DNA from: Mucilaginibacter straminoryzae
GTDB taxonomy: Bacteria > Bacteroidota > Bacteroidia > Sphingobacteriales > Sphingobacteriaceae
DNA: 64,000 nucleotides
Direction: 5' to 3'
NCBI RefSeq assembly: GCF_022953055.1
Contig: NZ_JALJEJ010000004.1
Coordinates: forward strand, 1 to 64,000
The notes under the pieces are model-generated. The model did no database searches. It saw nothing but the letters and a program-made list of their open reading frames with translations, and was not told where the DNA came from. Shown here one piece after another: positions 5,368-19,527 of this stretch (positions are counted from its first letter, which is position 1; each line of letters begins with the position of its first letter). Made by a program: the position numbers and the translations under genes.

Positions 5368-7059
5368 ATGTCTGATACAATTGAATTGAATGACAAACTC
5401 GTGTCCGAGTTGCGCCAGATGGCAAAAAGTATGGGTATTGAAGAAGCGGATGAATTGCGTAAACCGCAATTGATCAGCCGTATCAGCGAACAGCAGCAAT
5501 TAATTGAAGCTGCCCGTGCCCAACAAGATCTTCTTAACGAAAGCTACGCTCAAAAAAATACTGAAGCAGATGCATCTTCTGATGCAGAGGCTGATAAACC
5601 ACGTGCCAAACGTGCACGCACTGTAAAATCTAAAAAAGACGCCGAACCTCAACGCCCGCAGCCTAAACGCGAGTCTGTACCCTTAGATACCGATTTGTTT
5701 AGCGCAGGTGAGGAAGAAACCACGGCAGGTGAAGAAGAAACCGTAGAAACACCGGTTGAAGAAACCGTTGCTGAGGAAACTACACAAGCGCCTAATGCAC
5801 CGGCAGAACCTGTTGTAACCGAACGCCCGCGTTTTGAAAAACGCTTTCAGAATGGCAGCAACGGGAATAACGGTTCTTATAACGGAAACAATGGCAACCA
5901 GCAGCAGCAAAAACAGCAGCAGGAGCCACCTATCAACCTTGATTTTGATAACGTAATTGTGAACGAAGGTGTGTTGGAAATTATGCCAGATGGCTATGGT
6001 TTCCTTCGCTCATCCGATTACAACTACCTTACTTCGCCGGATGATATATATGTTTCTCAATCTCAGATCAAATTGTTTGGCCTGAAAACCGGTGATACCG
6101 TACGCGGTAGCATCCGCCCGCCAAAAGAAGGTGAAAAATATTTTCCGCTGGTGCGTGTAGAAGCGATTAATGGCCGTATCCCGGCAGAAGTGCGCGACCG
6201 TGTTCCATTTGATCACCTTACGCCGCTTTTCCCGCAGGAGCGTTTAAACCTGTTCACCGATCCGGGAAATTATTCAACCCGTATTATGGACCTTTTTGCC
6301 CCTATCGGTAAAGGTCAGCGTGGTTTAATTGTGGCCCAGCCAAAAACAGGTAAAACCATGTTACTGAAAGATGTGGCCAATTCTATCGCCAAAAACCATC
6401 CGGAAGTATACCTGATTATCCTGCTGATTGACGAACGTCCGGAGGAGGTAACTGATATGGCGCGCAGTGTACGTGCAGAAGTAATTTCGTCAACCTTTGA
6501 CGAACCGGCTGAACGTCATGTTAAGATTGCAAACATTGTGCTTGAGAAAGCAAAACGCATGGTGGAATGCGGACACGATGTGGTGATCCTGCTGGATTCG
6601 ATCACCCGCCTGGCCCGTGCTTATAATACTGTAGCCCCTGCATCTGGTAAAATATTATCAGGTGGTGTGGATGCTAATGCGTTGCACAAACCTAAACGTT
6701 TCTTTGGTGCGGCCCGTAATATCGAAGATGGTGGTTCATTAACCATTATCGCTACAGCATTGACAGAAACCGGATCTAAAATGGACGAAGTGATCTTTGA
6801 AGAGTTTAAAGGTACCGGCAACATGGAGCTTCAGTTAGATCGTAAACTTTCTAACAAACGTATTTTCCCTGCTATCGACCTTACGGCTTCAAGTACCCGC
6901 CGCGACGATCTGCTGCATGACCGCGAAACTTTACAGCGCGTTTGGATCCTGAGAAACCACCTTGCCGACATGAATTCGCAGGAAGCAATGGAATTCTTAC
7001 AGGCACAAATCAGAGGTACCAAAACCAACGAAGAGTTCCTGATCTCCATGAACTCCTGA
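5368..7059 (+). CDS. rho: Transcription termination factor Rho
   Basis: This is an RNA-dependent hexameric ATPase that ends transcription. The 563-residue protein is longer than the roughly 420-residue E. coli form because of a low-complexity insert at residues about 60-188, which is Glu/Ala/Lys-rich at first, then Asn/Gly/Gln-rich. The Rho N-terminal domain is at 1-50, the RNA-binding cold-shock fold at about 190-270 (GYGFLR at 209), Walker A QPKTGKT at 324-330, and Walker B with the [15 protein letters not shown] stretch. The Q- and R-loop regions look normal. It is a single gene followed by a long hairpin. Confidence 0.97.
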
Positions 7060-14791: not shown

Positions 14792-15268
14792 ATGAAGCAA
14801 TTGCTACTGATCAGACATGCCGAAGCGGCACACCCTACCGGCACAAGCGATTTTGATCGCCCGTTAACCGCCCGGGGACGACAATGCGCTCAGGAACTTG
14901 CAGAAAAACTGAAAGCAGCACGAATGTGTCCCGAACTGCTGATCATGAGCCCTGCTACCAGAACAGAAAGTACCGCGCAGATTGTCATTTCAGGAACGGG
15001 GATTGCAAAAGCTGAAAAGATCGAAGCGATCTACGAAGCAAGTACCAAGACGATATTAGGCTTGATCAACAGTTTGCCGGACCAGCACCAGTTTATAGCA
15101 CTTGTAGGCCATAATCCTGCCTTCACGGATATTGCCGTTTATCTGACGGGGAAATACGTTAGTTTAAGCCCTGCGGCGGCTATACTCATCTTATTTGAAG
15201 AAGACCGCTGGGAAGAAATCACGAAGGAAAGCGGCGTAAGAGCATGGTTTTATGAACCTGCCGATTAA
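14792..15268 (+). CDS. SixA-like histidine phosphatase
   Basis: This 158-residue protein of the histidine phosphatase superfamily has the catalytic RHAEA motif at residues 7-11, a TARGRQ motif, and GHNPAF near residue 112 with the second catalytic His. SixA enzymes remove phosphate from phosphohistidine proteins. A stand-alone Hpt protein is encoded at 8119-8487 but no link is shown. The stop overlaps that of convergent dprA by four bases. Confidence 0.87.
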   Translation: MKQLLLIRHAEAAHPTGTSDFDRPLTARGRQCAQELAEKLKAARMCPELLIMSPATRTESTAQIVISGTGIAKAEKIEAIYEASTKTILGLINSLPDQHQFIALVGHNPAFTDIAVYLTGKYVSLSPAAAILILFEEDRWEEITKESGVRAWFYEPAD

Positions 15269-16365
15269 TTCAACGCATAGGTTTTACCAGGCATAGAGCG
15301 AATAAAGCCCTGCATTTCCAGGTTAAGCAAATTCATGGTCAGCTGGCTTACCGGCATCCCCAGCTTCAACGTCAGCTCGTCTATTGCGATAGATGGGTGC
15401 TCATTTAAAACCGTAATAATCGAACGTTCCTCGCTGGAAAGATCCATCGCCAGCGCCAACTGGCTTTGCTTTGGTTGGGCTTCTTTATCGCCCTTCTCCC
15501 AGCCCATAATAAACGCCAGATCTTCTACGCAAGTGAGCAAACCGGCCTTATGATGCCTGATCAGGAAGTTACAGCCCTCAGATAGCTCATCGCCGACACG
15601 GCCCGGAAAAGCAAATACATCGCGGTTGTAAGAATTAGCAATCTCGGCAGTGATCAAAGTACCGCTTTTAATGCCTGCTTCTATTACCACGGTAACGTCT
15701 GCCAGGCCAGCTACAATACGGTTACGGGTAGGAAAGTTCTTTGGATCAGCAATCGTATGGTATGGGTATTCGGTAATCATACCGCCATTCTTCATCATTT
15801 TATCGGCCAGACTACGGTGCGCAGCCGGATACATGCTGCCCATCCCATGGCCTACCACACCTACGGTAGGCATTTCTAACTGCAGGGCCTGTTTGTGCGC
15901 TTCGCCATCTATGCCATAAGCCAGGCCGCTCACAATCAATACATCGTAAGCTTGCAGCTCTGCAACCAACTGGCGGCATAGCAACCGCCCATACTCGGTT
16001 GTTTTACGCGAGCCGACTATACTTACCACCCTTCCGTTGTTCAGGTCCATATCGCCCCTGGTATAAAGCAGCACAGGACTATCATTACAAGCCCTCAGTC
16101 GCTTTGGATACTTCGGGTCTGTATAAAATACCACATCAATACCATGCTGCTCTATAAGGGCTAATTCTTCTTCTGCCCGTTTAAGCGCGCTGTTAAAGTC
16201 GAGCATCTCTAAACGCTTCTCTCCAACGCCCGGCGCTTTCAGAAGTTTAGCAGGAGCTATGTTAAATACATTCTCTGCACTGCCTGCGTAAGCCAGCATA
16301 TTCTTTGCCAGGACGGGCCCCACACCCCTGATAAAAGTTAAGGCTAGTTGATGTAAAAGAGACAT
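15265..16365 (-). CDS. dprA: DNA-processing protein DprA
   Basis: DprA binds single-stranded DNA and loads RecA during transformation. The 366-residue protein has a short N-terminal helix-hairpin-helix-like region (FIRGVGPVLAKNML), a Rossmann core with SIVGSRKTTEYGR and LIVSGLAYGIDGEAH, the VIEAGIKSGTLITAE segment, and a C-terminal winged-helix domain at about 305-366. All parts seem intact. It is transcribed alone, towards the SixA-like gene. Confidence 0.94.
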   Translation of the reverse strand: MSLLHQLALTFIRGVGPVLAKNMLAYAGSAENVFNIAPAKLLKAPGVGEKRLEMLDFNSALKRAEEELALIEQHGIDVVFYTDPKYPKRLRACNDSPVLLYTRGDMDLNNGRVVSIVGSRKTTEYGRLLCRQLVAELQAYDVLIVSGLAYGIDGEAHKQALQLEMPTVGVVGHGMGSMYPAAHRSLADKMMKNGGMITEYPYHTIADPKNFPTRNRIVAGLADVTVVIEAGIKSGTLITAEIANSYNRDVFAFPGRVGDELSEGCNFLIRHHKAGLLTCVEDLAFIMGWEKGDKEAQPKQSQLALAMDLSSEERSIITVLNEHPSIAIDELTLKLGMPVSQLTMNLLNLEMQGFIRSMPGKTYALN

Positions 16366-16574
16366 AATAAGCCCACAAGGTACGTTTTTTAGCCATTCTG
16401 TCTATCACAAAGAGCACTAAAAACCCAAAATTGACCGCGCAATCCTACTTAACATAATGTAAGGTAATTTTTATCGCTCCCAATTTTCGGTTTTTAAAAA
16501 GAAGTTGTCCAAAATGGTCTTTGGAGGCTTAAAAATCGCTTAATAACTGATAATCAGACACTTTTGTAGATCTA
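16366..16574. other. AT-rich intergenic region between dprA and the blaI operators
   Basis: No gene is seen. The one notable word is TAACTGATAATCAG at 16544-16557, which recurs at 23033-23046. The dprA promoter should lie here on the minus strand, but I see no clear -7 box. Confidence 0.4.
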
Positions 16575-16685
16575 AACTACATAAATAGTTCACCAACTAT
16601 GAAAATAGTAGCTTTTTGGGATATTTAAACTATTTGAATAGTTTATCAACTATCTGAATAGTTATTCAAAACTACGACTATAGTT
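16575..16685 (+). promoter_or_regulatory. Five BlaI/MecI-type operator palindromes
   Basis: Five 16-base sites share the pattern AACTA-N6-TAGTT: 16575-16590, 16595-16610 (last base A), 16628-16643, 16648-16663 and 16670-16685. The core ACTA-N6-TAGT equals that of the known staphylococcal BlaI/MecI operator. Centre-to-centre spacings are 20, 33, 20 and 22 bases, so most sites lie on one face of the helix at about two turns. The last site ends 27 bases before the blaI-type ATG, which indicates autorepression. Confidence 0.85.
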
Positions 16686-16698
16686 GGGGTTTTGTGCC

Positions 16699-16706
16699 TA
16701 TTTTTG
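16699..16706 (+). promoter_or_regulatory. Candidate -7 box of the blaI-type gene
   Basis: TATTTTTG matches TAnnTTTG exactly. It lies only six bases before the ATG at 16713, which would make the transcript almost leaderless. The fifth operator sits just upstream, over the expected -33 region. Confidence 0.5.
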
Positions 16707-16712
16707 CCCGAA

Positions 16713-17075
16713 ATGAAAGAACTAACCAAAGCAGAAGAGCAGGTAATGCAGATTCTATGGCAGATTAAAGAGGGTGTGGTGAAGGATGTACTGGCTAAAA
16801 TGCCCGATCCGAAGCCGGCATACAATACCGTGTCTACCGTAGTTAGGGTAATGGAAACCAAGGGGTTTCTGGGCCATAAGGCCTTTGGAAACACGCATGT
16901 GTACCATCCGCTGATCACGGAGGCTGATTATAAGAAGTTTGTTTTCGACGGAATGATGAAAACCTGGTTTAATAATTCGGTGAAAGACCTGGTTACTTAC
17001 CTGGCCAAAGAAGGAAAATTGGACATTACAGACCTTGCTGAGCTGATTCTGCTCTCGCAGAAGGCGAAGAAGTAG
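16713..17075 (+). CDS. BlaI/MecI/CopY-family transcriptional repressor (orphan)
   Basis: This 120-residue protein has the winged-helix domain of the penicillinase-repressor family: LTKAEEQVMQILWQI, then AYNTVSTVVRVMETKGFL as recognition helix and wing, and a C-terminal dimerisation helix pair. The ATG at 16713 is taken because it matches the family start MKELT; an in-frame TTG seven codons earlier would fall on the -7 box. Such repressors are usually paired with a BlaR1 sensor protease, but no blaR1 follows: the next gene is rsmG on the other strand. It probably represses itself and distant genes through the operators at 16575-16685. Confidence 0.9.
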   Translation: MKELTKAEEQVMQILWQIKEGVVKDVLAKMPDPKPAYNTVSTVVRVMETKGFLGHKAFGNTHVYHPLITEADYKKFVFDGMMKTWFNNSVKDLVTYLAKEGKLDITDLAELILLSQKAKK

Positions 17076-17187
17076 CTAACCAATTAATAGAGAAGTAGGC
17101 ATGCCCCTACCCGGTAAGATAATTTAGAGTTAATATGGGGTGTTATTCAAGCTGATAGCGTGATTTCAGCCTTTATTGGTCTATAGA

Positions 17188-17817
17188 TTACTGAGCAGGC
17201 ACGTAAATCACCTGTTTGGTATCAAAAAATTCACGATCGAAGTAGTCTTTCAGGTAAAAGCGCTGCACCTTCAGGCCCGATTCTGCAATTTCGTGCACCA
17301 GGTCTCCCCCTTTCAGGTATAAGATGCCGTTCTTCAGCTTGTTTTTTGATTGCTTGCTGAACTTACCTTTCACCCAGGGATAAAAGTCTTTCAACTGGGT
17401 AACCGCCCGCGAAACCACAAAATCAAACTTAACATCTGCCTGCTCTGCGCGTAAATGCATTGCCTTCAGGTTTTTAAGGCCGATGGCCGCGGCTACTTCC
17501 TGCACCACTTTTATTTTTTTCCCGATAGAATCTACCAGCAAAAAGTCGGTTTCGGGAAACATAATTGCCAGCGGGATACCGGGGAAGCCCCCTCCTGTTC
17601 CTACGTCCAGCACTTTCTCGCCCGGCAAAAAAGAAATCACCTTGGCGATACCAAGCGAATGCAGTACATGCCGCTCGTACAACTGATCGATATCTTTGCG
17701 CGAGATCACGTTAATCTGGTTATTCCAAAGCTCGTACAGTTCCTGCAACTGCGAAAACTGCCGTTGCTGTTCGGGGGTAAGATCGGGGAAATAATGCAGG
17801 ATCAGATCAGAAGTCAT
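17188..17817 (-). CDS. rsmG: 16S rRNA (guanine(527)-N7)-methyltransferase RsmG
   Basis: The protein (209 residues) methylates G527 of 16S rRNA using SAM. The SAM-binding motif VLDVGTGGGFPGIPLAI is near residue 66, and FVVSRAVTQLKDFYPW contains the family's conserved SRA motif. Its start overlaps the end of the sigma factor gene by 11 bases, so the two are likely translated from one message. Confidence 0.94.
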   Translation of the reverse strand: MTSDLILHYFPDLTPEQQRQFSQLQELYELWNNQINVISRKDIDQLYERHVLHSLGIAKVISFLPGEKVLDVGTGGGFPGIPLAIMFPETDFLLVDSIGKKIKVVQEVAAAIGLKNLKAMHLRAEQADVKFDFVVSRAVTQLKDFYPWVKGKFSKQSKNKLKNGILYLKGGDLVHEIAESGLKVQRFYLKDYFDREFFDTKQVIYVPAQ

Positions 17818-18412
17818 TCGTTTTATTTCTATTTATCACGTTGCCCAACAAGTATTTAGCCCTAAATAGCTGAGCTTTTACTGTACCTAAAGGCAGGCTC
17901 AGCTCCTGGGCAATTTCTTCGTAAGAAAGCTCGTCGAAATAACGCAGGGTGATCAGGTTACGGTACCGCGGCGGCAAACTTTCCACCAATACTTTCAGTT
18001 CGGCGGTTTGCTGCTTTTTAATGGAAGTCTCTTCGGGGTTCAGCACATCGGCTTTTATCTGAAGCGGCCGGTCGTCGCCATCATCATCTACAATACCGTG
18101 CAGCGATGTGGTATTCAGCTTCTTCTTGCGGATAAAATCAATGCAATTATTAGTCGCCACCCGAAATAGCCACGTACTAAAGGCAAACTCCGGCTGGTAC
18201 TTATCCAGCTTTTCAAATGCTTTGGCAAAGGTTTCCACCGTTAAATCCATCGCATCTTCGCGGTTATTCACCATTTTGAGCGCCATAAAGTAAATAGAAT
18301 CTTTATAACGCTGCATCAGGCTGGCATACGCTTTCTGATCTCCTTCCCTGGCTTTCAGCACCAGTTGATAGTCATTCTTCGCGTTTTCGGTAAAATGGGC
18401 ATTTACTTCCAT
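17807..18412 (-). CDS. RNA polymerase sigma-70 family factor (ECF type)
   Basis: The 201-residue protein has sigma region 2 (LMQRYKDSIYFMALKMVNNREDAMDLTVETF, residues about 35-100) and region 4 (LPPRYRNLITLRYFDELSYEEIAQELSLPLGTVKAQLFRAK). The ATG at 18412 is chosen because it gives the standard distance to region 2; a longer reading would extend deep into the glycosyltransferase gene. It overlaps that gene by 10 bases and rsmG by 11. No anti-sigma factor gene is adjacent, so regulation is unclear. Confidence 0.9.
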   Translation of the reverse strand: MEVNAHFTENAKNDYQLVLKAREGDQKAYASLMQRYKDSIYFMALKMVNNREDAMDLTVETFAKAFEKLDKYQPEFAFSTWLFRVATNNCIDFIRKKKLNTTSLHGIVDDDGDDRPLQIKADVLNPEETSIKKQQTAELKVLVESLPPRYRNLITLRYFDELSYEEIAQELSLPLGTVKAQLFRAKYLLGNVINRNKTNDF

Positions 18413-19527
18413 CTTCTTGTAGTTGTTAAGCTTCCGATCAAACCAAAAAAATTGAGGTACAGGTAGTAGAGTGCGTCTAAAAAAGGCAAGGTCCACAATA
18501 AATCTTTACCTTTTAACTGCCTGAATTGTTTGCTGTAAATCAGCAATTGCAAACCCAGCCGGAGAACAAACACAACCAAAGCGATGATAAACGCCGGTTT
18601 AAAAAACAAACATGCCGTAAATGCACTATAAAACAACAGGCCACTGATGGCATCAAGGCCTAAAAGCCGTTTATGGCGGGCCTTATAAAATTTCCCCGCC
18701 CCCATGTGCCTTCTTTTCTGACGAAACCACTCGCCAAAGCTGGCTTTAGGTTCGCTCCAGGTAAAAGAATCCGTGCGGATCTCTACAGCTACGTTATTAC
18801 GGGTAGCATTTTCATTCACAAAAAGATCATCGTCTCCAGACATGATGTGCATGTGCGAAGCAAAGCCTTTGTTATTGAAAAACAAATCTTTACGATAAGC
18901 CAGGTTACGCCCAACCCCCATATACGCATTACCTTTAAGCGCGGCTGAAAAGTAATTGATGGCGGTTTTAATAGTTTCAAAGCGAATAAGCGCGTTCAGC
19001 AAACCTTTGGTTTTTACGTAAGGCGAATATCCTAAAACGATCTGATGCTCAGGATTAGAGAATGATGCAGCCATACAACTGATCCAGTTTTCTGATTCAG
19101 GCTCGCAATCTGCATCGGTAAACAACAAATACGGATGTTTTGCCGCTTTGATCCCCATCGTGATCGCAAATTTCTTTCCAGTTTTAAACTGCCGGCTCTC
19201 TGTAACGGTAACAATCTTCAGCTTTGAATATTGCGCCTGCAGCTCGTCTAACAAGTAATTGGAATCATCCACCGAGCAATCATTTACTACAATCACTTCA
19301 AAATCGGGATAATTTTGGGTCAATATCTTCGGTAAGAAACGTTCAAGATTGTCCCTTTCATTACGGGCGGCAATGATAACAGAAACAGGAACGCACTCTT
19401 TCTCAGGAGCTTCCTCTGCCTTATAGCTATTCAGTTTCAGATGATAAACCAGCAGATAGAACAGTTGCACGACGAAACCGAATGCCAAAACGGCCAATAA
19501 AACTTGCTGTAGTAGGGGTATACTCAA
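18403..19527 (-). CDS. Membrane-bound family 2 glycosyltransferase
   Basis: This 374-residue protein has an N-terminal transmembrane helix, then a GT-A domain with SVIIAARNERDNLERFL, VVNDCSVDDS and the LFTDADCEPE metal site. The acceptor-side motifs SGDDDLFVNE and WFRQKRRHMGAGKF (QxxRR-type) follow, and about three C-terminal helices end the protein. The arrangement is that of processive or lipid-linked transferases. The acceptor is unknown. It leads the minus-strand run with the sigma factor and rsmG. Confidence 0.88.
   Translation of the reverse strand: MSIPLLQQVLLAVLAFGFVVQLFYLLVYHLKLNSYKAEEAPEKECVPVSVIIAARNERDNLERFLPKILTQNYPDFEVIVVNDCSVDDSNYLLDELQAQYSKLKIVTVTESRQFKTGKKFAITMGIKAAKHPYLLFTDADCEPESENWISCMAASFSNPEHQIVLGYSPYVKTKGLLNALIRFETIKTAINYFSAALKGNAYMGVGRNLAYRKDLFFNNKGFASHMHIMSGDDDLFVNENATRNNVAVEIRTDSFTWSEPKASFGEWFRQKRRHMGAGKFYKARHKRLLGLDAISGLLFYSAFTACLFFKPAFIIALVVFVLRLGLQLLIYSKQFRQLKGKDLLWTLPFLDALYYLYLNFFGLIGSLTTTRRWK

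Follow-up and report, generated by a model that had tools for sequence, protein, structure and literature searches.

What does a BlaI-type repressor do when no sensor-protease gene accompanies it, and where does the array of five operators in front of it come from? The locus that raises this question lies in the window, the whole 64-kb stretch of Mucilaginibacter DNA analyzed here. Our reading, to which we give a probability of about 0.75, is that a sensorless BlaI/MecI locus has retained both its repressor and a fixed five-dimer array, and that the repressor is most likely an autorepressor. The features are listed below; P1 denotes the promoter of sensor-bearing relatives and P2 the putative promoter next to the start codon.

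15265–16365, minus strand: dprA (PF02481), divergent and head-to-head with blaI, kept in synteny
16576–16589, no strand: operator site 1, ACTACATAAATAGT, exact match; position kept in 18 genomes
16596–16609, no strand: operator site 2, ACTATGAAAATAGT, exact match; within the P1 -33/-7 spacer in sensor-bearing relatives
16610–16628, plus strand: 19-bp inter-site stretch, holding the P1 -7 box (TAnnTTTG-like) in sensor-bearing relatives
16629–16642, no strand: operator site 3, ACTATTTGAATAGT, exact match
16649–16662, no strand: operator site 4, ACTATCTGAATAGT, exact match
16671–16684, no strand: operator site 5, ACTACGACTATAGT, exact match; overlies the expected P2 -33 region
16699–16706, plus strand: P2 -7 box, TATTTTTG, of a putative near-leaderless promoter; box end 6 nt before the ATG
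16713–17075, plus strand: blaI, 120-aa BlaI/MecI-family repressor (PF03965; alignment to 1SD4, S. aureus BlaI, and 1OKR, MecI)
17076–17187, no strand: slot of the M56 sensor-protease gene in relatives; no recognisable remnant in the window
17188–17817, minus strand: rsmG (gidB; PF02527), convergent, closing the syntenic block

The repressor and its five-site array

The encoded protein matches PF03965 at 91.1 bits against a cut-off of 22.6 (residues 4–112 of 120), which bears out its proposed identity as a BlaI-type repressor, and aligns to the S. aureus MecI and BlaI chains over residues 3–112. It is predicted to carry the winged-helix and C-terminal dimerisation domains. The BlaI/MecI family itself is already known. 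With the BlaI–BlaR1 and MecI–MecR1 systems of Staphylococcus aureus and Bacillus licheniformis, the locus shares the repressor family (alignment to 1SD4, 1OKR and 1P6R) and dyad operators before the repressor's own gene, and autorepression would be expected. In B. licheniformis, dimeric BlaI occupies three operators and represses the operon that encodes it (PMC3305447), whereas the window has five dyads at the blaI promoter. It further differs from these systems in its ACTA-N6-TAGT dyad and near-leaderless promoter, in lacking a BlaR1/MecR1 gene in the operon, and in having no linked beta-lactamase or PBP gene. An Rfam scan of 15000–18500 gave no match.

Exact ACTA-N6-TAGT palindromes occur in the 64 kb at 16576, 16596, 16629, 16649 and 16671 and nowhere else, compared with 0.54 ± 0.76 per 64 kb in dinucleotide shuffles, where five were reached in 0 of 100; the array is thus as unusually long as the sequence-only reading had claimed. 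It is the cluster of perfect sites that stands out, because with one mismatch permitted the window count is at chance level. The array spans 109 bp (16576–16684) with start-to-start steps of 20, 33, 20 and 22, and site 5 ends 28 bases before the blaI ATG. The spacing of 20–22 given earlier fits the 20- and 22-bp steps but passes over the 33 bp from site 2 to site 3. By arithmetic, the cumulative offsets (0, 20, 53, 73 and 95) are multiples of 10.5 within ±1 bp, therefore placing all five operators on one helix face; the phasing proposed before is real, and its wording, "most" of the sites, was too low. BlaI dimers might bind cooperatively across such an array. The palindromes are tentatively assigned to the window BlaI by position and covariation only, a link also drawn from BlaI-family knowledge (the B. 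licheniformis operators and repression of the own operon).

The 109-bp pattern with its 20-33-20-22 spacing is present in exactly one copy in each of 18 of 150 Mucilaginibacter genomes, and the reversed control pattern gave 0 matches in the same 150. It always lies upstream of an orthologous blaI, within the block dprA← →blaI … ←rsmG, and the spacing is identical in the 17 loci read directly. The corresponding gene in most other Mucilaginibacter members has a three-site array (20-28). Operator columns are much more conserved than the inter-site stretches, the P1 promoter stretch excepted, and the array shows no indels.

Loss of the sensor, promoter change and selection

Of the 18 genomes with the array, 10 have an M56 (BlaR1-like) gene behind blaI, as do the three-site members checked; it is missing from the other eight (the window genome, G241, G165, G150, G122, G229, G168 and G200). 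In the window, the convergent rsmG ends 113 bases downstream of blaI with no M56 gene between them. The absence of a linked sensor had been noted correctly from the letters; what that note missed is its origin by loss and the presence of the array together with the sensor. The idea that five sites compensate for a lost sensor was rejected on this ground, since sensor-bearing relatives carry the same array, which is thus not an adaptation to orphanhood.

Decay of the sensor gene is still visible in several gaps. A decayed M56 reading scores 123 behind blaI in G168 (shuffles 38.5 ± 6.0, maximum 58), and a remnant of the C-terminal TonB-like domain scores 117 and 135 in G241 and G150 (shuffles 32–33, maximum 47); no M56 remnant was recognisable behind blaI in G200 or the window. 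A short open frame, similar to the C-terminal TonB-like part of the missing M56, was observed behind an orphan blaI at L036:4076-4447 and in the L124 gap, in L036 with a TATATTTG box upstream. A tree built from five neighbouring proteins of the locus places the orphans at three positions: a six-member clade with the window (support 0.99), G168 (0.88), and G200 as sister of the sensor-bearing G152 (1.0). At least two independent M56 losses are firm as judged from these sequences, and a third, resting on the placement of G168, is probable. The orphan state is accordingly one of loss from a blaI–M56 operon that still occupies the same syntenic place in relatives. Outside the genus, a homologous blaI with three operators and no M56 within ~1.5 kb downstream (L070, in G031 of another genus of the family) is possibly a further independent orphan.

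Each M56 gene detected across the eight orphans adjoins its own BlaI, leaving only the array-linked BlaI unpaired, and no unpaired M56 or dedicated sensor was found elsewhere in these genomes (G241 is only 86% complete, and a gene may be missed there). The option of a sensor located elsewhere is weakened by this arrangement, seen in the window genome and in the seven other orphans.

Sensor loss is accompanied by a change of promoter. P1 is of the Bacteroidota type, TTTG-N19-TAnnTTTG, in all ten sensor-bearing five-site loci, with a -7 box mostly one base off; site 2 fills its -33/-7 spacer and the -7 box falls within the 33-bp step, a layout that explains the greater width of this step. Since a site inside the spacer also occurs in three-site loci and in distant Bacteroidota, the P1 layout is probably ancestral, as far as sequence comparison can tell. 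P1 has been lost in the window's six-member clade and in G200, that is, in seven of eight orphans; in the window, its -7 box is degenerate (TAGCTTTT at 16609–16616). In the same seven, a consensus -7 box, TATTTTTG, stands right before the ATG, at 6 nt in 6/6 members of the window clade and at 15 nt in G200. It fits the Bacteroidota -7 consensus TAnnTTTG (PMC9723704), and its recurrence at the same 6-nt distance across the six-member clade sustains the near-leaderless box first proposed at 16699–16706. No TTTG -33 element was found at the usual distance from P2 in the window. G168, with its M56 pseudogene still visible, retains P1. The second half of site 3 reads TAGT in 8/8 orphans and CAGT in 10/10 sensor-bearing loci. 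With two or three losses only, the promoter and site-3 changes stand as correlations with sensor loss. Relative to the Bacteroidota blaI–M56 operons with a two-site promoter at the orthologous locus, the window thus shares the repressor, the synteny, the array (in 10 sensor-bearing genomes) and the placement of site 2 in the -33/-7 spacer known from more distant Bacteroidota, and differs in having no M56, an eroded P1, a -7 box beside the ATG and a perfect site 3.

A decaying remnant still awaiting loss would also look like a repressor without its partner. The sensor is gone, and blaI changes somewhat more rapidly in orphans than where the sensor is present (dN/dS 0.014–0.071 for orphan–orphan pairs at unsaturated dS 0.4–1.1, versus 0–0.014). 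BlaI of G229 (L130, blaI at 5910) is 149 aa long, with an internal duplication of part of the C-terminal dimerisation region, which could be taken as a further sign of decay. Against this, dN/dS among orphans at these dS values is far below 1, the open reading frame is intact in 8/8 orphans, and the array carries no indel, with all eight defining bases present in 39/40 operators in the eight orphan genomes, compared with 37/50 in the ten sensor-bearing ones. blaI without its sensor is therefore under purifying selection, and these data make a functionless leftover very improbable.

Operator recognition, targets and inducers

Recognition helix and operator covary at dyad position 5. Where the helix is TVST-V(V/I)RV, dyad positions 5/10 are pyrimidine/purine in 346/350 half-sites; where it is TVST-(I/F)(I/V)RI, they are A/T in 42/50, counted over orthologues and close homologues whose loci are related and hence not independent events. 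This predicts that the window BlaI reads ACTAY...RTAGT sites and that it would be insulated from the paralogous BlaI–M56 system of the ACTAA...TTAGT type; the C21 paralogue of the window genome combines an I-type helix with an operator of the ACTAA type.

A paired-site genome search, proposed earlier as a way to a wider regulon, led back to the starting point: tandem ACTAY-type sites occur at the own blaI promoter only, in 18/18 genomes searched. Degenerate tandem pairs (≤3 mismatches) elsewhere in the eight orphan genomes were at control level. Single ACTAY-N4-RTAGT sites were rejected as a regulon; 10 lie outside the array in the window genome, 9 of them within coding sequence, and there is no excess because the reversed control is commoner (57). 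A single site before a 372-aa gene (G150, G165) was also rejected, as it arises from the conserved Asp-Tyr-stop codons with which the upstream gene ends. In L176 and L202 (G122, G150), an ACTAY...RTAGT dyad lies 29 bp upstream of the start of a MocR-like regulator gene and is probably that gene's own operator; this dyad, at a conserved distance in G122 and G150, was not seen in the window genome. Tandem ACTAA-type sites, by contrast with the array type, stand upstream of genes for GLPGLI-family proteins, TonB_C proteins and FtsX-like permeases. In the window genome, a secreted 203-aa TonB_C protein (L022:2274-2963, C1:145.8 kb) lies behind two ACTAA-type operators 33 bp apart and is a likely target of a paralogous BlaI. 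A GLPGLI-family protein (L023:1447-2255, C19:231.2 kb) has two such operators 17 bp apart, 38 bp upstream, and paired operators like these precede GLPGLI genes in many relatives.

The paralogous pairs raise a further explanation, namely that a paralogous M56 cuts the orphan BlaI in trans or that paralogous BlaI proteins bind the array. The window genome holds two BlaI–M56 pairs, the orphan BlaI retains, without gaps, both the dimerisation domain and the part matching the S. aureus cut site, and staphylococcal MecI and BlaI are interchangeable on their operators (PMC3305447). The BlaR1 and MecR1 receptors, however, are not interchangeable (PMC3305447), and the I-type helix and ACTAA-type operator of the C21 paralogue disfavour cross-binding to DNA. 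Moreover, the BlaI cut site is an Asn-Phe pair (PMC9834060), yet the position aligned with staphylococcal Asn101-Phe102 is Thr-Tyr in the window, Ser-Tyr in sensor-bearing five-site relatives and Ser-Phe in most other aligned M56-paired BlaI proteins. We regard such cross-talk as rather unlikely.

Both inducers suggested for checking, beta-lactam and copper, find little support. The M56 protein of one relative (L081), the sole relative M56 scanned, shows an M56 and a TonB_C domain and lacks a penicillin-binding one. CopY/TcrY copper repressors resemble the window BlaI in winged-helix fold and length and give a weak NCBIfam match; CopY-type copper sensing was rejected, as the TIGR02698 score is 43.4 bits against a cut-off of 121.95 and the 120-aa protein has zero cysteines, hence no metal site like the cysteine-rich C-terminal one of CopY. 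PetR of the cyanobacterial PetR–PetP copper switch, likewise a BlaI-family factor, works with an M56-type protease outside beta-lactam resistance (PMC7896320); PetR has that protease at hand and acts in trans on petE and petJ, whereas the orphan BlaI lacks both a protease and any recognisable target in trans. A small molecule could instead free BlaI from the array without proteolysis, and cell-wall dipeptides have been reported for BlaI and MecI (PMC3305447). This seems unlikely: half-displacement in the cited dipeptide work took ~2 mM, a 2023 structure paper has BlaR1 cleaving directly with no intermediate (PMC9834060), and the window BlaI has no recognisable ligand site.

The divergent neighbour offers another candidate target. 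If the array also or mainly governed dprA, this second target would explain the repressor's survival after sensor loss, and the head-to-head pair of dprA and blaI is indeed found throughout the genus, and also in several further genera of this family, whether or not M56 is there; the dprA start lies only ~84–107 bp from site 1 in many five-site loci (from coordinates). Yet the genes on the far side (rsmG, sigma factor, GT2, tgt) are just as well conserved, and general synteny thus accounts for the pairing. The minus strand shows no conserved -7 box overlapping the array, and the distance to dprA in the window is 211 bp. Control of dprA is accordingly doubtful.

Proposed mode of action and meaning

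In the autorepressor reading, BlaI dimers would occupy the whole of the phased five-site array and shut off the near-leaderless P2 of their own gene, with site 5 lying over its -33 region, and BlaI would thereby keep its own level low and steady. Because no protease is left to cut BlaI, this level would be set by autorepression together with growth dilution, or by some ligand or protease. Repression at P2, the point where its transcript would start and the lack of an inducer are inferred. A repressor with itself as sole recognisable target would bring no obvious benefit, and this picture probably lacks a partner or a target in trans; degenerate single operators may exist elsewhere in the genome. 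More speculatively, and improbably in our estimate, repeated sensor loss may have produced a stable regulator that limits itself and has taken on a new role in the cell, with the five-dimer array retained each time, the promoter shifted so as to be leaderless beneath the final operator, and site 3 made perfect, the array acting as a cooperative homeostat or as a DNA-organising cluster for blaI and the divergent dprA.

In open papers, we found nothing specific on BlaI in Bacteroidota or on orphan BlaI. As far as our searches show, the sensorless, selected, five-operator form, with its repeated origin and promoter change, is new and undescribed within the open literature searched. BlaI is usually viewed as the passive partner of a sensor-protease; in these genomes it repeatedly outlives the protease, under selection and with its array intact, and the repeated sensor loss suggests that the orphan repressor serves a purpose of its own. 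Natural sister genomes of which one has the sensor (G152) and the other lacks it (G200) allow BlaI to be studied alone. The helix–operator correlation provides a testable specificity rule for many Bacteroidota BlaI paralogues and points to GLPGLI proteins, TonB-domain proteins and FtsX-like permeases as their trans targets.
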